Of a stretch of DNA of 32,314 nt, positions 10,793 to 22,614 are shown piece after piece. The notes under the pieces are model-generated. The model worked only from the letters and a program-made list of their open reading frames with translations. It made no database searches and was not told where the DNA came from. Every line of letters begins with the position of its first letter. The first letter of the stretch is position 1. Both the position numbers and the translations under genes were made by a program. This DNA is from an uncultured delta proteobacterium (GTDB lineage: Bacteria; Desulfobacterota; WTBG01; CAIYCZ01; CAIRTM01): contig CAIRTM010000052.1 in the NCBI GenBank assembly GCA_903881505.1, forward strand, positions 1 to 32,314, in the 5' to 3' direction.

Positions 10793-11782
10793 TCAGTCGG
10801 CTTTGAGCTTTCTGACTTCCTCGGTCAGCGGCGGGACAACCTTGAACAGGTCATCAACCACGGCGTAGTCGCACTTGGACAGAATGGGGGCTTCCGCATC
10901 CTTGTTGATCGCAACGATGACCTTGGAGGTGCCCATGCCGGCATAATGCTGGATTGCGCCGGAGATACCGCAGGCGATGTAGAGGTTCGCGGATACGACC
11001 TTGCCGGTCTGGCCGACCTGGTCGGAAACCGGACGCCAGCCCGCGTCAACCGCTGCGCGTGAAGCGCCCACCGTTGCGCCCAAAACCTTGGCCAGGTCTT
11101 CCAGAATACCGTAGCCGCTTGCATCCTTCATGCCGCGACCGCCGGAGACGATGATCTCGGCCTCGGTGAGGTCGACCTTGCCCGCATCGCCTTTAACGAC
11201 TTCAAGCACTTTCACACGGATATCGGAGGCGGAAACCTCGGCAGCCACCCTGACGATCTCGGCGGTCTTCGAAGCGTTCGGCGCGGCGGCGATCAGAACG
11301 TTGGGACGGATCGTCGCGATTGCCACGGCAGTGTTCTGAAATTTCACATCAGCGATCATTTTGCCGGAATACATGTAGCGCTTAACCGTAAAGGCATCGC
11401 CGTCAAGGCCGATGGCGGTGCAGTCAGCGGCCATGCCGGCATTGATGCGCGCGGCAACTTTCGGCATCAGGTCCTTGCCGGCCACGGTCGCGCCGGCCAG
11501 CACGATCGAGGGCTGCTCTTTTGTAATCAGGTCTGCCAGGGCCTTGGCATAGCCGTCGGCAGTGTAATTTTCGAGCAGGTCGTTTTCAACCACATAGACC
11601 TTGTCTGCGCCGTAGGGTGCGAACCTGTCGGCCAGAGCGGCAACGCCCTTGCCGATGATAACCGCGCACAGCGGCTCTGACTTGGCATCGGCGATTTTGC
11701 GGGCTTCACTCAGTATTTCAAAGGCAACCTTGCGGATGGTCCCCTGATCCTGTTCTGCTACAACAAAAATTCCTTTACTCAT
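10793..11782 (-). CDS. etfA: Electron transfer flavoprotein alpha subunit
   Basis: A 329-residue EtfA. The N-terminal alpha/beta domain (about 1-190) is followed by the FAD-binding C-terminal domain (about 205-325), with IIVSGGRGMKD, TVGASRAAVDAGW, QVGQTGKVVSANLYIACG and ISGAIQHYAGM. These hold the SRxxxDxGW and QxGxTG residues that bind FAD. With EtfB it forms a soluble heterodimer that passes electrons between flavin dehydrogenases and quinone or ferredoxin/NAD partners. AAGGAG lies about nine bases before ATG 11782; the gene follows etfB after 57 bases and is closed by a strong terminator. No N-terminal ferredoxin extension is present. Whether this Etf bifurcates cannot be decided by eye. 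Confidence 0.96.
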   Translation of the reverse strand: MSKGIFVVAEQDQGTIRKVAFEILSEARKIADAKSEPLCAVIIGKGVAALADRFAPYGADKVYVVENDLLENYTADGYAKALADLITKEQPSIVLAGATVAGKDLMPKVAARINAGMAADCTAIGLDGDAFTVKRYMYSGKMIADVKFQNTAVAIATIRPNVLIAAAPNASKTAEIVRVAAEVSASDIRVKVLEVVKGDAGKVDLTEAEIIVSGGRGMKDASGYGILEDLAKVLGATVGASRAAVDAGWRPVSDQVGQTGKVVSANLYIACGISGAIQHYAGMGTSKVIVAINKDAEAPILSKCDYAVVDDLFKVVPPLTEEVRKLKAD

Positions 11783-14453: not shown

Positions 14454-14849
14454 TTAAAAATCCGAAATCGCGCTCCGGTGATAGTCATCCAGCTTCTGGA
14501 GAGCTTCGCGCGAGGAAAGGCCCTGTTTCAAATACGCTGCCACGGTTGCGGCAAAAATCGCCTTGAGCATGATAATATTATCAAGGTTCGACGAGCGTAT
14601 AAGCTCAAGGTATTCGACATCTGACGATATCCCTTTTGTGCGAAGATGCTCGACCAGCTCACCCGGTTCCCGGTCGGTTGCCGCGCAGTAGCAGACATCG
14701 TAGGCGACCCTGAACATGCGGTCCATGTCCGGAGCGCCGAATTCCGGAAAGTTGGCCTTGATCTCCTCGTAATAATCTTTTCTGAACTCCTCCAGGCTGT
14801 AGACGACCTCGCCTGAGGCCACCTGGTCGGGGCTGAATTCCCACTGCAT
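14454..14849 (-). CDS. Unknown 131-residue soluble protein, last gene of the redox operon
   Basis: ATG 14849 is preceded by AGGAG at good spacing. The protein is acidic and helical and has no signal peptide, membrane helix or CxxC motif; two cysteines occur (CYCAA near residue 53). Readable blocks are MQWEFSPDQVASGEVVYSLE, MFRVAYDVCYCAATDREP and LIRSSNLDNIIMLKAIFAATVAAYL. I do not recognise a family. It follows the PCP_red-like gene after 101 bases on the same strand and so is probably the distal gene of the eight-gene operon. An A+T-rich stretch follows the stop. It may be an accessory or assembly factor, but this is a guess from position. Confidence 0.75.
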   Translation of the reverse strand: MQWEFSPDQVASGEVVYSLEEFRKDYYEEIKANFPEFGAPDMDRMFRVAYDVCYCAATDREPGELVEHLRTKGISSDVEYLELIRSSNLDNIIMLKAIFAATVAAYLKQGLSSREALQKLDDYHRSAISDF

Positions 14850-14950
14850 GGTTATTCTCCTCTCCTGTGCATGTCCGCTGCAGCCGAATAAAAAAGCGGG
14901 CGCATATGCAATGCACCCGCCCGAAAGCGCAGACACCGCGTAGTGCGGCG

Positions 14951-15193
14951 TTATGCCTTGTTGGTCATCAGCGGCTCGATATGCTTGAGAGCCATGCCGA
15001 CGAACGGCTTCGGAGTCACTTCCTTGGTGCACTCGATAACAGCATTCTCGGTTACCGTTCCGCCATCGCCGACCTTGGCCACGATTGCCTCGGTCAATTT
15101 TTTCTGGGTCATGGCGCGAAACGGCTTCGGCGAGGATTCTATCAGTTTGTCGTACATCTGCTTGCTGTTGCCTTCCCACTGTAACTCTGCCAT
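14951..15193 (-). CDS. Small PCP_red-like domain protein
   Basis: From ATG 15193 (GAGGAG seven bases upstream) the protein has 80 residues. The pattern W-E..., SPKPFRAMTQKKLTEAIVAK and VTENAVIECTKEV resembles the short helical PCP_red domain (PF08369). That domain is found at the end of light-independent protochlorophyllide reductase subunit B and as a stand-alone protein in anaerobes. The stand-alone forms have no established function and there is no sign of photosynthesis here. It sits between the second CCG protein and the unknown 131-residue protein in the operon. The family match is by pattern only; the alternative is an unknown small protein. Confidence 0.7.
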   Translation of the reverse strand: MAELQWEGNSKQMYDKLIESSPKPFRAMTQKKLTEAIVAKVGDGGTVTENAVIECTKEVTPKPFVGMALKHIEPLMTNKA

Positions 15194-15263
15194 GGTGCTC
15201 TCCTCTCTCAAAGGTTTACGCTGTTAGTGTTCTCATTGACAAAGTAACGCACGTGCCATGCTC

Positions 15264-16502
15264 CTATCCGCCCATCGCCATAAGCATCAGATCGGTCAGG
15301 TCATAGAGCTTCATTTTCTCCTGATTGCGCTGCAGGGGATCTTTCAGGTTCTGCTCACAGTACGGGCAGCAGGTGGCAATCGCGTCGGCCCCGGTGGCTT
15401 TCGCCTCTTCGATCCGCTCCTGGGCCACCTTGAAAGCGTGATCGGGGTAGGCTATCCGAACCCCGGCCCCGGCGCCGCAGCACCAGCCCTGATCCTTGAT
15501 ACGCTCCATTTCAACCAGGCGCAGTCCCGGAATGGCCTTCAAAATGTCGCGGGGCTCTTCGTAAATGCCGCAGTGCCGGCCGATGTGGCAGGGATCATGC
15601 CAGGTGACGGTCATGGGAACTTCGCGGGTGAATTTTATAGTGCCGTCGGCAACGAGTTTAGCCAGAACCTGCGAGACATGCACGACCTCGATTCCTCCGG
15701 TTTCAATGCCGGGAACCTGGGGGAAATCGTACTTGAGCACATGATGGCAGCCGGCGCAGTGCGTGATGATCTTCTTTACGCCCGCCTTTTTGAACAACTC
15801 CATGTTGCGCTTGACCAGGTCAAAAAACGTCTCGCGGTCGCCGATGCGGATTGCCGGGCTGCCGCAGCAGATTTCCTTTTCCCCGAAAATGCCCACGCTG
15901 ATGCCGGCCTTGTCGAGCACCTTGACGACATTGATGATCTCATGCTGCAGGAGCGGATCAAAGGCTGGGGTGCAGCCGACGAAAAACAGGTAGTCGCATT
16001 TTTCTTTGGATGCGTCTTTTACCGGCAGCCCCTTGGCCCAGTCGGCGCGCTTTGAGCGCGGCTGCAGCCAGGGGTTGTCATAGTTTTTGATGCTCTTGAG
16101 CAGTTCCTTGTGCTGCGGCAGCGGCCCGATACCCATTTCGATCAGCCTGGTTTTCAGTGCCTCGGCCGCTTTGAGCGGCTCTTTTTCGTTCAGGCGCAGA
16201 CAGTTCATTTCACAGGCGCCGCACGAGGTGCAGGTATAGCATATCTCGAGCATCTTCTCTGAATCTTCAATCTCGAAATCACCCTCGAGCAGAGCGCGGA
16301 TGATATGAAACTTCCCCATGGCGCTGTGGGAGAAAAAGCGGTTGTGCCGGAACTCGGGGCAGATCTCGTTATACTTCGAGCTTTTAACGTTCCAGCCCCA
16401 CTGATTCATGCACCAGTTGCAGCGCGCATCGCCCCAGGCCATCTCGCGATAGTCCTCGAGGGTACGCTCATACACCTTCTTGTCGATCTTTGGATAAGTC
16501 AT
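15264..16502 (-). CDS. CCG-domain Fe-S oxidoreductase (HdrD/GlcF type), copy 2
   Basis: A 412-residue cytoplasmic Fe-S protein. An N-terminal cysteine group (C28, C31, C48) precedes a complete [4Fe-4S] motif C91-x2-C94-x2-C97-x3-C101. Two CCG domains follow: C177, CC212-213, C249-x2-C252; and C305, CC341-342, C378/379, C382. This is the build of HdrD, GlpC and GlcF, which take electrons from a flavoprotein and pass them to thiol, quinone or Etf partners. CCG domains of HdrB/HdrD bind unusual clusters; whether these do is inference. AGGAG lies close before ATG 16502. It is clearly paralogous to the 429-residue copy at 19831 and follows the AOR-like gene. Confidence 0.93.
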   Translation of the reverse strand: MTYPKIDKKVYERTLEDYREMAWGDARCNWCMNQWGWNVKSSKYNEICPEFRHNRFFSHSAMGKFHIIRALLEGDFEIEDSEKMLEICYTCTSCGACEMNCLRLNEKEPLKAAEALKTRLIEMGIGPLPQHKELLKSIKNYDNPWLQPRSKRADWAKGLPVKDASKEKCDYLFFVGCTPAFDPLLQHEIINVVKVLDKAGISVGIFGEKEICCGSPAIRIGDRETFFDLVKRNMELFKKAGVKKIITHCAGCHHVLKYDFPQVPGIETGGIEVVHVSQVLAKLVADGTIKFTREVPMTVTWHDPCHIGRHCGIYEEPRDILKAIPGLRLVEMERIKDQGWCCGAGAGVRIAYPDHAFKVAQERIEEAKATGADAIATCCPYCEQNLKDPLQRNQEKMKLYDLTDLMLMAMGG

Positions 16503-16590
16503 TTCCTCTCCTGACCCCCATGCGGACGTCCATGCGCAGATACGGGGCGAAAATCTTAGTTCAAAAAACTAACAGTTATTCAAACGATAC

Positions 16591-17850
16591 TCAAGCACTT
16601 TTTGCAATAACATCAGCGGCAATCCGGTTCAGTTCATCGGCGCTGAACTCATCCCACTCGGCCGACATCTGCACAAGCGCCACGATCTTTTCTTCCGTTA
16701 TCTCTGGCGCCATCACCATCAGCATGGGGTCGATTCCCAAAACAGCCGCGAGCGCCTGCCGTTTCTGCCACCATGCATCGCCCTGGCCGCTGCCGAAAAT
16801 CGAAGCCGGTACTGCGGTGGAAAACGCCGCAGCCTTTCCGGCATCCGCGCTCACGCCCTCGGTTTTGCCGGCCTTTGCCGCTGCCTCAGGCTCGATACCC
16901 TGACGAAAGCACTGTTCCATGGCCTGCCCGGCGTCAAGGCCGGCCCCGTGCAGCGCGGCAAAACCCCTGATGTCGGTGATCAGACAGCCGGGAGCCGGGT
17001 GGCCCTTCATATCCATCGCGCTCGGGGCCTCGTTGTATTTCACGAACGCCGCCGCTGCATAGGGGCAGTTGTAGGCCGCATTGTTGCGGTGCGTCATGCT
17101 TGCGAGCTTTTCAATCGCGCCGGCATCGATGCCGATATCTCTGGCAATGTCCTTCAGCCCGGACTTGCCGGAGATTGCGCCGGAGCAGATGGCGTTCTTC
17201 AGGTCAACGCATGCGCCGAAAAAGCCCTCGGCGACATCGAGCGAATCAAGGCCGCGCAGGGCTATCGCTTTGAGCTTCTTGGCGCCGAACACCGCTCCGA
17301 GGGCGGCCTTGTCAAAGCTGCCCCAGTAATTGACCGAGAACTGGGCGGCCTTCGACTGCGCCTCGGCGGACGGGCCGATCACGAGCAGCTGGATCATTTC
17401 GTCGCCGTAGGCTTCGCGGATCTTGTCGACCGAATCCCAGACGTCTTTTCCCCAGATATCGGAGGCATCATCGATATCGGAAAGCCCGTCATGCAGCCAC
17501 AACCTCACCGGGCTGTCAGAGCTGCCCAGCACAACCACGAAATCAAAGCCGGTCAGCTTCAGTTCCACGGCAGCGTAGCCGCCAAACGGCACATGGCACA
17601 GCTTGCCGCTCACGGGACTCTTGGCGCTCACCACGCCCGCGCAGCCGCCGGGCATGAACGTGCCGGTAAAAAAGCCGGTGCCGATAATGAGCGGATCGCG
17701 GTCCTTGTACCGCTCATACAGGGCCGCGGTAATGCCCGCTCCGCCCAGACCCGCGGCCACCATGTCCTCGCTCAGGGACTCGGTATCGCACTGCTTGGCA
17801 TCAAGGTCAACAATCAGGATTGTCTCTTTGTAATTGTTCATCAGTTCCAT
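16591..17850 (-). CDS. Shortened AOR-like (aldehyde:ferredoxin oxidoreductase family) protein
   Basis: This 419-residue protein belongs to the AOR family, whose usual length is about 600. The AOR N-terminal domain is clear (about 1-205): GLGGAGITAALYERY, IGTGFFTGTFMPGG, SAKSPVSGKL, FGGYAAVELKLTGFDFVVVLG and ALGAVFGAKKLKAIALRG. The rest is strongly reduced. The place of the family's C-x2-C-x3-C cluster motif has a single cysteine (YNCPYAAAAF, C262), and the arginine of the usual RxGxGAVMG loop is replaced (FDKAALGAVFG). It therefore probably lacks the standard [4Fe-4S] cluster and may not bind tungsto- or molybdopterin normally. It starts 4 bases after the ferredoxin stop, with GGAGG inside that gene's end. 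Confidence 0.88.
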   Translation of the reverse strand: MELMNNYKETILIVDLDAKQCDTESLSEDMVAAGLGGAGITAALYERYKDRDPLIIGTGFFTGTFMPGGCAGVVSAKSPVSGKLCHVPFGGYAAVELKLTGFDFVVVLGSSDSPVRLWLHDGLSDIDDASDIWGKDVWDSVDKIREAYGDEMIQLLVIGPSAEAQSKAAQFSVNYWGSFDKAALGAVFGAKKLKAIALRGLDSLDVAEGFFGACVDLKNAICSGAISGKSGLKDIARDIGIDAGAIEKLASMTHRNNAAYNCPYAAAAFVKYNEAPSAMDMKGHPAPGCLITDIRGFAALHGAGLDAGQAMEQCFRQGIEPEAAAKAGKTEGVSADAGKAAAFSTAVPASIFGSGQGDAWWQKRQALAAVLGIDPMLMVMAPEITEEKIVALVQMSAEWDEFSADELNRIAADVIAKSA

Positions 17851-17854
17851 AGCA

Positions 17855-18199
17855 TCAACCCTCCAGGCTCAAAACACCATACGGACAGGCCCGCACGCAC
17901 AGCGGCCCGTCATCCTCATCCTCGCAGCAGTCGCAGGCGACCCGCAGAAGGATCGGCTTGGCGCTGGCGCCCGCGCCCTCGATCTGCTCTCCCGGCTTCA
18001 GGAGCTGCTCGCCCTCGGGGCGGCCCAGATACAGTGTTTTTGCGCGCTTGACCATCATGCCGTAATAATTCTTCTTCTCTTCAAAATAAAACATCAGGCT
18101 CGACCCGATCGATGAAATCGTCTCGTCCTGATGGTAATTGCAGGCAAACTCGCATATGCGGCAGCCGGTGCATTTCCGGGCGTCAACCTTCAAATCCAT
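17855..18199 (-). CDS. Two-[4Fe-4S] ferredoxin-like subunit (HybA/AOR-partner type)
   Basis: A 114-residue ferredoxin. Motif one is C10-x2-C13-x2-C16-x3-C20; motif two is C89-x2-C92-x8-C101-x3-C105-P, so all eight ligands for two cubanes are present. The 68-residue insert between the motifs is typical of the small ferredoxin subunits encoded next to AOR-family enzymes. AAGGAG precedes ATG 18199 by about seven bases, and the AOR-like gene begins 4 bases after the stop. The pair is very likely translated together and physically associated. It would act as the electron wire of the complex in the cytoplasm. Confidence 0.93.
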   Translation of the reverse strand: MDLKVDARKCTGCRICEFACNYHQDETISSIGSSLMFYFEEKKNYYGMMVKRAKTLYLGRPEGEQLLKPGEQIEGAGASAKPILLRVACDCCEDEDDGPLCVRACPYGVLSLEG

Positions 18200-18247
18200 A
18201 TATGATCTCCTTATGAATGGATGTAGTGTAGCGTCTGCAAAACCCGA

Positions 18248-19816
18248 CTATCCCTCTATCGGAATATTGTGCGGCGGGTTGGAAACCAGGTTCGGGTCAA
18301 TCGCCTTCTTTATGCCTCGCAGCAGCCGGTCATAGCCGAACACCGGGGCGGCCATCGCATGGTATACGCCGCCCAGGAACGGGCCGACGCCGTTTTCAAG
18401 GCCGTTCTGTACATCCTGCTTGGTCATCTCAAGCAGTTTGCCGAGCAGGTCTCCCAGAACCGCGGGATCCTTCTCGACGGGAAAGTCGGTCTCGCCGAAG
18501 CCGAAGTGGCCGAAATCGTAGCCGCCGATCCAGTCCGGGCCGTCGCTGTCGAGAATGGGGGGCGAAAACTTGTTGACCCACTCGTAGCCCTGCTTCACGT
18601 GGTCGATCGAGTATTGCAGGGTGTCGGTATTCAGGCGCAGCGCAAGGAAGGTGCCCGAAGGCCGCATCATGCGCGAGCCGTGCGTGTCGCGGATCCAGTT
18701 GTTGGCGGTACGGGCCACCCACATGTCCTGCACCTCCTGCTTCACGGGCTTGCCACCGGTTTCCTCGATAATGTCTTCGAGCACCCGCTTTTCATACTCG
18801 AGCTGCTTGCCCGAGGTAAATCCCCACAGGCATACGCCCACGGCGTTCTTCACGTTGTCCTGGAACGTGCGCTTCTTCCACTCCGTCCAGTACTGCTCGC
18901 AGGAATTGGCCCACCACCAGATGTAATAAACAGTCGGCCACTTCTGGACTACGCCGGCGATCTCGGCCCTGCCCACTTCGTACATGAACTTGATGGCGTC
19001 CTCGAGCGACTCGTATTTCACCATATACCACTTAAAGCGGTCTTCAGGCAGGGTTGAGGTCTGGTTGGGAATCGTGCCTTCCACCGGCCAAACCTTCGGG
19101 CCCGGATAGGGGTGCAGCTTGACGGCCATTTTGGTGACCATGCCGACACCGCCCATGGCGCCCGCGTATCCGCGCAGCATGCCGCGCAGGTCCGGACCCG
19201 GGCCCTCGCCCCAGAACCCGTCCGTGGCGTCCTGCGAGAAGGAGCCGGTGCGCAGAATCTCGCCGCTCGGAAGCACCCACTCGATGCCGAGGATGTTGCG
19301 GTAGGCAACTCCCAGCCGGTAGCCAACGCCCCACATGCCCTGGAACACGTGGCCGCCGATGGCGGATGCCGTGGCGCTGGCCTCGGGAGATCCGATGTAG
19401 AGGCCCAGCTTGTAGGCCTCTGCCTGGATCTGCGCCAGGGTACACAGCGGCTCGATCACGGCATACATGTTCTTGTCGTCGATCTCGTGAATTTTGCCCA
19501 TGCGCTTGCAGTCGATGAGCACGGTATGGGGCCGGTTGGGAGATCCGGTCAGCGACCACTGGTTGGAGCCGACGGGAATGAAGGGGATCTTGTAGCGGTT
19601 GCAGATCCTGATGACCGCCTGGACTTCCATGGTGCCGTTCGGGAGCACCACGAATTCCGGGGGCATGCTCATGCCGAGCACTTTCGGCGGCAGCCAGTCG
19701 CCGTAGTAGGCGTTGATCGTTGCGGAATTGTCTTTTACGTTTTCATCGCCGATGGCAGCCTGGAATGATTTCAGGATCTGCTCATGCAGCTCGTGCTGTT
19801 TGGTAATAGCAGTCAT
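18248..19816 (-). CDS. FAD-binding PCMH-type oxidoreductase, large (522 aa)
   Basis: From ATG 19816 (AGGAGG eight bases upstream) the protein has 522 residues. The FAD-binding PCMH/VAO domain spans about 35-260, with PPEFVVLPNGTMEVQAVIRICNRYKIPFIPVG, the GG-H-x-F-x-G-x-x-G-x-G-YRLG FAD loop near 160, and a typical IEWVLPSGEILRTG strand. A longer C-terminal substrate domain rich in Trp and Tyr follows (YYIWWWANSCEQYW, DWIGGYDFGHFGFG). This shape resembles vanillyl-alcohol oxidase / cresol dehydrogenase-like and large GlcD-like enzymes. An oxygen-independent dehydrogenase of a hydroxylated organic substrate is expected. It lies 14 bases after a CCG-protein gene, its likely electron acceptor. 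The substrate is unknown. Confidence 0.9.
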   Translation of the reverse strand: MTAITKQHELHEQILKSFQAAIGDENVKDNSATINAYYGDWLPPKVLGMSMPPEFVVLPNGTMEVQAVIRICNRYKIPFIPVGSNQWSLTGSPNRPHTVLIDCKRMGKIHEIDDKNMYAVIEPLCTLAQIQAEAYKLGLYIGSPEASATASAIGGHVFQGMWGVGYRLGVAYRNILGIEWVLPSGEILRTGSFSQDATDGFWGEGPGPDLRGMLRGYAGAMGGVGMVTKMAVKLHPYPGPKVWPVEGTIPNQTSTLPEDRFKWYMVKYESLEDAIKFMYEVGRAEIAGVVQKWPTVYYIWWWANSCEQYWTEWKKRTFQDNVKNAVGVCLWGFTSGKQLEYEKRVLEDIIEETGGKPVKQEVQDMWVARTANNWIRDTHGSRMMRPSGTFLALRLNTDTLQYSIDHVKQGYEWVNKFSPPILDSDGPDWIGGYDFGHFGFGETDFPVEKDPAVLGDLLGKLLEMTKQDVQNGLENGVGPFLGGVYHAMAAPVFGYDRLLRGIKKAIDPNLVSNPPHNIPIEG

Positions 19817-19830
19817 TGGCCGGCCTCCTC

Positions 19831-21120
19831 TCACAGTGCTTCCGTCATAAGATCGAAGAGATTCTTGATCTCCATTTTTTCTTCCATGCCGATGCCGCCG
19901 GCGCGCAGGTTGCTTTCGCACCACGGGCAGGCCGTAACGATCATGGAAGCGCCGGTATCCTTGGCCTCTTCAATGCGCTCGCGGGCGGTCCACTGCGCGA
20001 AGTCCTTGAACGCCGTAAACGCGCCGCCGCCGCCGCCGCAGCACCAGGCGTACTCCCTGATGCGCTCCATCTCGACGAGCTCAACGCCGGGGATGGCCTT
20101 CAGCAGCGTGCGGGGCTCATCATAGACGCCCTCCAGGTCCTTGCCGGGAACATAGGGCCTTCCCATGCGGCCCATGTGGCAGGGGTCGTGCCAGGTAACG
20201 GTAACGGGCAGCTCTTTCCTGAACTTGATCTTTTTGGCCTTGACGAGTTTCTCCAGGTACTCGGCCACGTGCAGCACCTCGAAGTTTTTCTTCACGGGCA
20301 GCCCGTCGTACTCAACGCGGATGGTGCCGTAGCAGCCCGCGCAGGGCGTAATCAGCGTCTTGATGCCGAGCTCGTTGAACTTTTTGACATTGGCCGTTGC
20401 CAGGCGCTCGAACTCATCCGTCAGGCCGAGCTTGTCAGGCGGGCTGCCGCAGCACATCTCGGACTCGCCGAGTATGCCGAAGTCTATCTTGTTGGCCTTC
20501 AGTATTTTGGCGATGTTGAGGATCGTGCCTTTGAGCTCCTGCGACAGACCGTACGTGCAGCCGACGAACAGCAGCACCTCTGCCTTTTCCTTGTTCAGGT
20601 CCTTGATGCCCAGCTCTTTCAGCTCCTTTGCCCAGGCATTGCGCTTGGAGCGCGGCTGCACCCAGACATTGTCGTACTGCTTCAGGCTGTCGGCCAGGGC
20701 CTTGTGCTCGGGCAGCAGCCCCTGGTCCTTGATGTATTCCGCGCGCATCCAGCGGAACAGCTTCACCAGCTCGGCGTCGCGGATATTCTTGTCCATTGCG
20801 TCACAGCCGCCGCACATGGTGCACTTGAACAAAATGTCCTTTATCTCGGGATCATCGCCCCACTTCATCTTGCCGTCGATAATGGACAGCGCCAGATCGC
20901 ACTTGCCCTGGCCTGAATAGGAGTCATACAGATACTTCGTATGCTGGGGGCAGATACGGGCGTATTTGGCGCTCTTCACCTGCCAGGAGTTCACCCATTT
21001 GCATACCGAGCAGCGCGAGCAGTTGAAAGCGATCCAGCGCGCCTTCTCCTGGTCGAAAGGCGCTTCGAGGGGGTATTTTAAATAGCGCGGATCTTTGGGA
21101 AGCAGCATTTCCTTAGCCAT
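19831..21120 (-). CDS. CCG-domain Fe-S oxidoreductase (HdrD/GlcF type), copy 1
   Basis: From ATG 21120 (GGAGG five bases upstream) the protein has 429 residues. It carries an N-terminal cysteine set C34, C37, C40, C57. A ferredoxin-like motif follows whose fourth ligand is lost: C100-x2-C103-x2-C106-x3-Asp110. Two full CCG domains come next: C188, CC223-224, C260-x2-C263; and C314, CC360-361, C398-x2-C401. The Cys-to-Asp change is absent in its paralogue at 15264. It would accept electrons from the flavoproteins encoded on both sides (gaps of 29 and 14 bases). Aspartate can ligate some low-potential or 3Fe/4Fe clusters, so the site may be altered rather than dead. Confidence 0.93.
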   Translation of the reverse strand: MAKEMLLPKDPRYLKYPLEAPFDQEKARWIAFNCSRCSVCKWVNSWQVKSAKYARICPQHTKYLYDSYSGQGKCDLALSIIDGKMKWGDDPEIKDILFKCTMCGGCDAMDKNIRDAELVKLFRWMRAEYIKDQGLLPEHKALADSLKQYDNVWVQPRSKRNAWAKELKELGIKDLNKEKAEVLLFVGCTYGLSQELKGTILNIAKILKANKIDFGILGESEMCCGSPPDKLGLTDEFERLATANVKKFNELGIKTLITPCAGCYGTIRVEYDGLPVKKNFEVLHVAEYLEKLVKAKKIKFRKELPVTVTWHDPCHMGRMGRPYVPGKDLEGVYDEPRTLLKAIPGVELVEMERIREYAWCCGGGGGAFTAFKDFAQWTARERIEEAKDTGASMIVTACPWCESNLRAGGIGMEEKMEIKNLFDLMTEAL

Positions 21121-21149
21121 GAAATCCTCCATCTATCGAGAGCATTAAA

Positions 21150-22559
21150 TTAAAAGCAGAGTTTGCCCGGGTTCAAAATGCCGTTGGGGTCGTAGATTTT
21201 CTTGAGCTCCTTGAGCATCGCCGTATAGGAGGCCGAACGGCGGTAGACCATGTCCGCCCAGGGGCCGTAGGGCCGGCTGAAAAAAGCGCCCTCGTCGATG
21301 AGCTGCTTGGCAAGCTCGGTGGTCAGGGCGCCGATATTTTCCTTCTCCGCATCGCAGGACGGATCGCACGGGAAGCTGAACTGCAGGTGGCACGCCCGGC
21401 CGCGCTCAAGGGGCTGCATGTAGACGCCGACGTCGTTCAGGCTGAGCCCGTAGCCCGCGGCATAGCCCATGGCGATGTCCTCATAACCGGCGGCCTTGTC
21501 CATGGTGGTGATGAAAAACACGTCCTGCGAAGGCGTCTTCCAGTAGTCGCCCGCGGGAAGATTGCGAAGCTTGTCGATGATCATGCTCTCCAGGCCCGCG
21601 ACGCCGCCCACGGTTTTGCCGGGCTGCAGCCGGAAGTCGGCCGCGATTTCCATGAGCGCCTCTTGCTCGTAGGCGATGCGCTCAAGGGGGCGGCGCGGCG
21701 CGCCCGCAATGACCAGCACGAGAATATAATTGGGCAAAGCGTTCATCAGAGCGTCAAAATCCCTGGCGTCTGCCGCGATGAGCTGCGCCAGCAGGAATTT
21801 GCTCAGCACAAAGCACTCATTGCCCACATGGCGCCGCTGCAGCTTGTAGATGGGGTCAGCGGCATCGCCGAGGTCGTCAAAGCCGATAAAAAAGCATTTC
21901 TGGTGTTTGGGCCGGTACTCGGTCTTCACGTTGAGCCAGCAGACAATGCCCATGGTTCCCTGCGCGCCGAGAAACGTGCGCCAGAAATCGATGCCCGGGC
22001 CTTCCGGGTAGGCGCCCTTCGTGTGTTTGTCCGCTGCCGAGCCGGTATGGAAAATATCGCCCGTGGGCAAAACGACTTCCATGGTGAGGGCCGGCTCGCC
22101 GTATTCGTATTTGGGGATGAGCATGGGCTCGCGCTCGATGGAGCTCGTCAGCGCCGATGATTTCGGGTGCGGAAACAGGGGGTTCAGCGCCATCTGGTCA
22201 TGCTCTTTGAGGGCCTCGTTGAGCTGCTGCCAGGTGACGCCGGGCTCGATCTTGGCCTTGCGGTTCAAGGCATCGATCTCAAGGATTTTGTTCATCCCGG
22301 AAAGGTCGACGATAACGCCGCCCTGCTCCGGCAGCGTGGCCCCGTAAAAATGAATGCCCGAGCTGGACGGCACCAGCGGGGTAAGCGTTTTATTGGCGAA
22401 TTTGACCAGTTCCTGCACGTGCGCCGTGCTTTTCGGCTTTGCCACGGCAATCGGCTTTTTGGGAGAAGCAAGGCTGCGGTCAACGGAATAGAGCTCCAGG
22501 GCCTCCTGATCGTCAAGGACATTTTTAGAGCCGACAATATCCTTTAGCTCCTTAATCAT
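21150..22559 (-). CDS. GlcD-type FAD-binding oxidoreductase (469 aa)
   Basis: First gene of the operon. A PCMH-type FAD domain (about 30-215) shows AVAKPKSTAHVQELVKFANK, TPLVPSSSGIHFYGAT, VIVDLSGMNKILEID, the EPGVTWQQLNEAL motif and FLGAQGTMGIVCWLNVK. The C-terminal domain ends YDPNGILNPGKLCF, the classic closing motif of GlcD/LDH-type enzymes. These oxidise 2-hydroxy acids such as glycolate or lactate and hand electrons to a GlcF-like CCG protein or to Etf. The usual GGxxxxx FAD loop is altered (FPHPKSSALTSSIEREP), which makes the substrate uncertain. GAGGAGG lies five bases before ATG 22559. A CCG gene follows after 29 bases. Confidence 0.92.
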   Translation of the reverse strand: MIKELKDIVGSKNVLDDQEALELYSVDRSLASPKKPIAVAKPKSTAHVQELVKFANKTLTPLVPSSSGIHFYGATLPEQGGVIVDLSGMNKILEIDALNRKAKIEPGVTWQQLNEALKEHDQMALNPLFPHPKSSALTSSIEREPMLIPKYEYGEPALTMEVVLPTGDIFHTGSAADKHTKGAYPEGPGIDFWRTFLGAQGTMGIVCWLNVKTEYRPKHQKCFFIGFDDLGDAADPIYKLQRRHVGNECFVLSKFLLAQLIAADARDFDALMNALPNYILVLVIAGAPRRPLERIAYEQEALMEIAADFRLQPGKTVGGVAGLESMIIDKLRNLPAGDYWKTPSQDVFFITTMDKAAGYEDIAMGYAAGYGLSLNDVGVYMQPLERGRACHLQFSFPCDPSCDAEKENIGALTTELAKQLIDEGAFFSRPYGPWADMVYRRSASYTAMLKELKKIYDPNGILNPGKLCF

Positions 22560-22585: not shown

Positions 22586-22614
22586 ATCATACGACACACT
22601 GCGTTCATTGCCAG
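22586..22614 (-). promoter_or_regulatory. Candidate proximal promoter of the redox operon
   Basis: On the minus strand CTGGCA (22609-22614), 17 bases and TATGAT (22586-22591) match four and five of six consensus positions. It would give a leader of about 20 bases carrying the ribosome site, and it lies just downstream of the hairpin at 22620-22667. Confidence 0.45.

Follow-up and report, generated by a model that had tools for sequence, protein, structure and literature searches.

Introduction

Wherever an AOR-type protein is annotated, the usual assumption is that it is a tungsten enzyme. The operon considered here, at positions 14454-22559 of contig CAIRTM010000052.1 from an uncultured delta proteobacterium (GCA_903881505.1, genome G000), encodes a conserved AOR protein which has lost most of its catalytic half (short AOR, AORn), together with a ferredoxin (Fd), two GlcD-type flavoproteins (GlcDa, GlcDb), two HdrD/GlcF-like CCG proteins (CCGa, CCGb) and two small proteins. 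The stretch of DNA analysed, called the window, is 32,314 nt long.

The closest described systems resemble separate parts of this operon. In Ca. Anaerobenzenivorax ORM2a, "Magic" proteins 24-26 were predicted to form a GlcDEF-like heterotrimer (PMC13101534). Benzene activation was the role proposed for this trio and for BzS1_12970/80/90 (PMC13416013), both published in 2026; in their anaerobic, benzene-degrading hosts these proteins rank with the most abundant. Syntenic homologues of low identity from other sulfate reducers were assigned other functions in the BzS1 paper. The published gene-neighbourhood classification of tungsten oxidoreductases (WOR) selected only proteins with both AFOR domains, and the lineage of short AORs would therefore fall outside it. 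The nit1C cluster (PMC8567248), which acts in cyanide assimilation, includes the radical SAM protein NitD, the GNAT protein NitE and the AIRS protein NitF. A literature search for truncated AORs, or for AOR with GlcD or HdrD, returned no description of such a system, and the statement of an earlier, sequence-only reading that no characterised enzyme has this subunit list held for the literature searched.

The short AOR and its ferredoxin

The short AOR of the window matches AFOR_N in Pfam (5.9e-45), gives no AFOR_C match, and aligns to solved AORs over only about residues 4-246. Its C-terminal part was matched to full AORs by hhalign (probability 91%, E 1e-6), and it is therefore a shortened remnant of AFOR_C and not an unrelated domain. 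In the tree the short AORs make up one side of a 100/100 branch, apart from the full AORs.

Residues were compared between 34 short and nine full-length AORs, the numbering of Arg76 (P. furiosus AOR) being taken from the alignment. The equivalent of Arg76, which we take to be a conserved pterin or catalytic residue, is Arg in 9/9 full AORs and in 0/34 short AORs. A His in the region of His448 (exact numbering inferred), named in a WOR paper as a key residue of PfAOR, is present in all nine full AORs and deleted in all 34 short ones. A, C and A stand at the three positions of a degenerate CxxCxxxC motif in the window protein. The motif is kept, along with the distal Cys, in the short AORs of L057 and L058; its loss thus looks stepwise, and these two proteins are possible intermediates in the loss of the cofactor. 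Tungsten oxidoreductases of the WorL/AOR type are recognised by both domains, the Arg76/His448 residues and CxxCxxxC plus distal Cys, a set which the short AOR does not have. The AOR fold of the operon is probably cofactor-free. The AOR-like subunit had earlier been compared with tungsten enzymes and with BamBC; as a catalytic subunit of either kind it has to be given up, since much of the catalytic half and the cofactor contacts are gone. A class II benzoyl-CoA reductase (BamB-I) was likewise rejected, the short AOR not being a full-length BamB and BamA being absent above cut-off from the genome.

The ferredoxin gene lies immediately upstream of the short AOR gene in 39/39 distinct loci. The window protein has nine Cys residues (positions 10, 13, 16, 20, 89, 91, 92, 101 and 105), a Fer4_9 match just below the Pfam cut-off (1.9e-5) and a HydN-type NCBIfam match.

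Conservation of the operon

The order GlcDa-CCGa-GlcDb-Fd-AORn-CCGb-small protein is complete in a second member of the genus (L046) and in three further genera (L048, L050, L052), and consistent fragments of it, interrupted by contig ends, recur in another five genomes (L047, L049, L051, L053 with L139, and L054). Most of the relatives named here are metagenome-assembled genomes, and several of the loci run into contig ends. In G013, a relative at the level of the class, the modules are apart and rearranged. The seven-gene block is a conserved operon across the bacterial family, more than chance would give. The ratio of nonsynonymous to synonymous substitution rates (dN/dS) against the nearest relative, L033, is 0.03-0.15 for all eight genes: 0.027 for CCGb, 0.03 for Fd, 0.047 for AORn, 0.06 for the seventh gene, 0.10 for GlcDa and GlcDb, 0.13 for the eighth and 0.15 for CCGa. 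The value for AORn denotes strong purifying selection, and the short AOR is therefore in use.

CCGb matches PF02754 in two stretches (2.5e-36). Homologues of the 80-aa seventh protein follow CCGb directly in L046-L048, L050 and L052-L054. No Pfam family is over cut-off for this protein, DUF2621 remaining sub-threshold (19.8 bits against 27.7), and the label PCP_red was dropped as lacking Pfam support. The 131-aa product of the eighth gene has no Pfam or NCBIfam match, and no useful match to a structure or family. This gene is conserved in the bacterial family but belongs to the operon only within the genus; its homologues in G002, G003, G008, G009 and G010 sit on other contigs in unrelated contexts, and it is therefore placed outside the conserved block. 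The check on gene order proposed with the sequence-only reading was passed, the order recurring in other genomes, with the eighth gene as an inconstant member. In its list of subunits the flavoproteins, CCG proteins and ferredoxin stood, the AOR-like protein was reduced to AFOR_N only, and the PCP_red-like label lacked support.

The flavoprotein trio

GlcDa carries FAD_binding_4 (2.5e-22) and FAD-oxidase_C (7.6e-5), its nearest solved structures are flavoproteins of the VAO/PCMH family, and it shares 72-91% identity with its counterparts in L139 and L033, both syntenic relatives. CCGa matches PF02754 in two stretches (4.1e-35), and its N-terminal cluster region is degenerate at the cysteine positions. 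GlcDb has PF01565 only (7.8e-23), without FAD-oxidase_C; its best solved relatives are 4-cresol dehydrogenase and eugenol oxidase, over the FAD domain only.

Many Desulfobacterota carry the trio in this order, whether AOR genes lie nearby or not, and its commonest type shares with the window 41-46% identity in GlcDa, 30-36% in CCG and 32-35% in GlcDb. As a module, GlcDa-CCG-GlcDb stands on its own; it is widespread and has relatives in the literature, a point missed in the sequence-only reading. A paralogous set in the order GlcDb-GlcDa-CCG occurs in L134 (G000:C4; about 36-44% identical to the window trio) and in L140 (G008:C383), and two GlcDa-CCG-GlcDb trios stand in tandem at 6620-15673 of L131 (G143:C3). 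In L127 and L126 the trio lies a few kb from a full-length AOR, its ferredoxin and a small protein of ThiS size.

The G000 assembly is 96.8% complete. It contains neither a BamA hydrolase nor DsrA above cut-off, and so gives no indication of benzoyl-CoA degradation or of dissimilatory sulfate reduction. Acyl-CoA ligase, MaoC and CoA-transferase were not found among the neighbouring genes tested in the window.

The partner locus

The pair of ferredoxin and short AOR is tied to a second locus, a connection beyond the sequence-only reading. In other families Fd-AORn is followed by c4 (a glutamine-amidotransferase-like protein of about 400 aa, in which a G-x-C-A-G-A motif is conserved and BPL_N is weakly matched), a NarI-type cytochrome b, a CCG protein, an NMT1-type ABC transporter and a radical SAM protein of MSMEG_0568 type; GNAT and AIRS proteins lie beyond the latter, cytochromes c and b561 are often present, and the exact set differs among loci. 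All this forms one contiguous cluster including Fd-AORn in L079, L087, L155 and L156. In the family of the window the same remaining order, c4-cytochrome b-CCG-ABC-radical SAM-GNAT-AIRS, stands without Fd-AORn on another contig (G000:C84, L148-L152). The radical SAM protein there (G000:C84:40177-41220) scores 335 bits against a cut-off of 303.7. An ABC substrate-binding gene was not found at the partner locus in G000 or G001. The simplest history is that the Fd-AORn pair moved from the partner cluster into the trio operon in the lineage of the window.

Among 395 sampled Desulfobacterota genomes, short AOR and c4 occur in 34 each, 33 of them common to both, and the radical SAM family occurs in 38, of which 32 have the short AOR. 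AIRS was found in 15/15 of the short-AOR genomes tested and in 1/10 others. The association also holds within genera g22, g24, g60, g96 and g16, where some members have the set and others are without it. The exceptions are G354, without c4; G317 and G369, without the radical SAM protein; G064 and G191, which have the radical SAM protein without the short AOR (G064 has c4 as well); and four genomes whose radical SAM matches are all weak. The hypergeometric p values for the co-occurrence, 1e-38 to 1e-45, ignore shared ancestry and are not usable as probabilities, the contrasts within genera being more telling. A cluster tied in this way to the short AOR by genome comparison is previously undescribed. 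A search of the literature on nit1C in sulfate reducers returned no description of this system, and no assigned chemistry was found for c4 and the nit1C-type proteins. A nitrilase of sll0784 type was over cut-off in 0/25 genomes, and none was found at E <= 1e-30 in G000.

The partner locus of G000 (G000:C84:22000-54881; L146, L147) also holds two more GlcD-type sets and an amidohydrolase. A Cys-containing protein without Pfam match (c17) recurs inside the short-AOR cluster (L079, 15956-16780; L090, 1635-2435).

Operon layout

All eight open reading frames (Table 1) were confirmed on the minus strand, with intergenic gaps, in operon order, of 29, 14, 48, 4, 88, 70 and 101 bases; a purine-rich stretch resembling a ribosome site precedes 8/8 starts, and the layout first read from the letters was thus borne out.

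Table 1. Features of the operon and its flanks (window positions).
Feature	Position	Strand	Description
GlcDa	21150..22559	-	469 aa; FAD_binding_4 and FAD-oxidase_C; first subunit of the GlcD-CCG-GlcD trio
CCGa	19831..21120	-	429 aa; HdrD/GlcF-like; two CCG domains
GlcDb	18248..19816	-	522 aa; VAO/PCMH-type FAD protein; third subunit of the trio
Fd	17855..18199	-	114 aa; two-cluster [4Fe-4S]; HydN/HycB-like; WorS-like by position
Short AOR (AORn)	16591..17850	-	419 aa; AFOR_N and C-terminal remnant of AFOR_C
CCGb	15264..16502	-	412 aa; second HdrD/GlcF-like CCG protein
Small protein	14951..15193	-	80 aa; conserved; last constant gene of the block
Eighth gene	14454..14849	-	131 aa; no Pfam or NCBIfam match; co-directional in the genus, unlinked elsewhere
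Promoter-like site upstream of GlcDa	22586..22614	-	consensus match only, 9/12 positions; sole one in the region
Terminator-like hairpin overlapping the end of the eighth gene	14462..14478	-	consensus match only
Stronger hairpin	14894-14922		between the seventh and eighth genes

The promoter-like site is weak, because the number expected by chance is higher (mean 4.3), and so is the terminator-like hairpin at the end of the eighth gene, 16 such sites having been found against 10.4 expected. A divergent gene for an ArsP-type permease lies upstream of the operon, and the gene downstream has no Pfam family match. At 10793-11782 of the window, about 3 kb downstream of the operon, there is a gene for an electron transfer flavoprotein alpha subunit, a possible electron partner.

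Proposed function and alternatives

The reading we favour, at about even confidence, takes the products of the operon for a soluble flavin dehydrogenase complex in which the AOR is a scaffold free of cofactor, and which is linked to menaquinone. A single large soluble redox complex, as the sequence-only reading had supposed, appears plausible from the presence of two VAO/GlcD-type flavoproteins, CCG proteins and a ferredoxin. The two FAD subunits and CCGa would form a GlcDEF-like trio taking electrons from an organic substrate; a second sub-complex would comprise the ferredoxin and short AOR, as a WorS-WorL-like pair in which the AOR fold, without tungstopterin, might serve as a scaffold or docking subunit; and CCGb would be a further electron carrier. 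Electrons would then exit to menaquinone by way of the NarI-type cytochrome b and CCG protein of the partner locus, where a small-molecule pathway (c4, ABC transporter parts, radical SAM, GNAT, AIRS) would stand beside the menaquinone link. The NuoG part of complex I, which keeps the fold of molybdopterin enzymes without the cofactor, offers a parallel for the short AOR. Several points weigh against this picture: the cytochrome b-CCG pair of C84 could serve other donors; since CxxCxxxC persists in L057 and L058, part of the short AORs may have retained the binding of a cluster or cofactor; and the AlphaFold2 model of the short AOR (12 sequences) had a mean pLDDT of 44.8, too poor to use.

That the trio, Fd-AORn and CCGb are redox modules independent of one another, in a loose neighbourhood and not in one complex, appears rather unlikely; the separated and rearranged modules of G013 and the occurrence of Fd-AORn elsewhere without the trio agree with it, whereas the tight spacing and the identical seven-gene order in at least four genera do not. 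An equally low probability is given to the short AOR carrying a non-tungstopterin cofactor or small ligand made by c4, radical SAM, GNAT and AIRS, so that the operon would be a redox enzyme using that ligand. The near-perfect co-occurrence of AORn with c4, radical SAM and AIRS, their clustering in other families, the strong constraint on AORn, and the AIRS-fold and ThiH/BioB-like radical SAM families, which are typical of cofactor synthesis, all argue for it; a shared catabolic pathway, however, fits the co-occurrence equally well, the same cluster has an ABC transporter of uptake type, and the nit1C relatives act in cyanide assimilation. It is tempting to speculate further, though the idea is distinctly doubtful, that an undescribed anaerobic pathway of Desulfobacterota exists, in which a nitrilase-free nit1C-like module with c4 would make a ligand filling the former tungstopterin site of the short AOR; the result would be a redox enzyme of a new class, with GlcD-CCG flavoproteins and the menaquinone pool as its coupling partners. 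That the short AOR still works with tungsten or molybdenum, its active site reduced to a minimum, is very unlikely: AFOR_N shows good conservation and some members keep the cluster cysteines, but the Arg76 and His448 equivalents are lost throughout the 34 short AORs, a large part of AFOR_C is missing and the window protein is without CxxCxxxC. Activation of benzene or another aromatic hydrocarbon by the trio, as proposed for Magic 24-26 and BzS1_12970/80/90, would be suggested by the identical order and domain architecture and by the syntenic low-identity homologues reported in other sulfate reducers (PMC13416013). The functions given to those homologues in the BzS1 paper are different, many trios lie in unrelated contexts, the genome itself has no BamA above cut-off, and acyl-CoA ligase, MaoC and CoA-transferase are missing among the neighbours tested; this activity is considered highly improbable for the window.

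If the favoured reading of a cofactor-free short AOR is right, the protein parallels the reuse of a molybdoenzyme fold by complex I. Annotation would be misled by an AOR lineage that is conserved and under selection and lacks most of the catalytic half. Through the phylogenetic profile, which links the short AOR to c4 and nit1C-type proteins, that module becomes open to testing in anaerobes. The trio widens the flavoprotein family discussed for anaerobic benzene activation, its architecture alone being no proof of benzene chemistry.

Comparison with known systems

By order and architecture the window trio is like Magic 24-26 and BzS1, with a flavoprotein (FAD_4 and FAD-oxidase_C), a CCG protein and a flavoprotein with FAD_4 only; the description of the latter systems does not include Fd, short AOR, CCGb or the small protein, and the window lacks a benzene or benzoyl-CoA neighbourhood. 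GlcDEF glycolate oxidase likewise combines two FAD subunits with one CCG protein, but the window proteins are far under the NCBIfam cut-offs (GlcD 89.7 against 567.9 bits, GlcF 29.4 against 333 bits). With the tungsten oxidoreductases (WOR/AOR, WorSL; BamBC) the operon shares a WorS-like ferredoxin adjoining an AFOR_N protein, and it differs from them in a short AOR without most of AFOR_C and the key residues. At the partner locus a NarI-type cytochrome b precedes a CCG protein, an arrangement that recalls modules of the HdrDE, DsrMK and TmcBC type, although those CCG proteins that were tested, from the window and L079, do not reach the NCBIfam cut-offs of these named families. The partner locus has radical SAM, GNAT and AIRS in the order of NitD, NitE and NitF, to which they correspond by family; unlike nit1C it is without the sll0784-type nitrilase, and these genes are joined to c4, the cytochrome b-CCG pair, an ABC transporter and, elsewhere, Fd-AORn.

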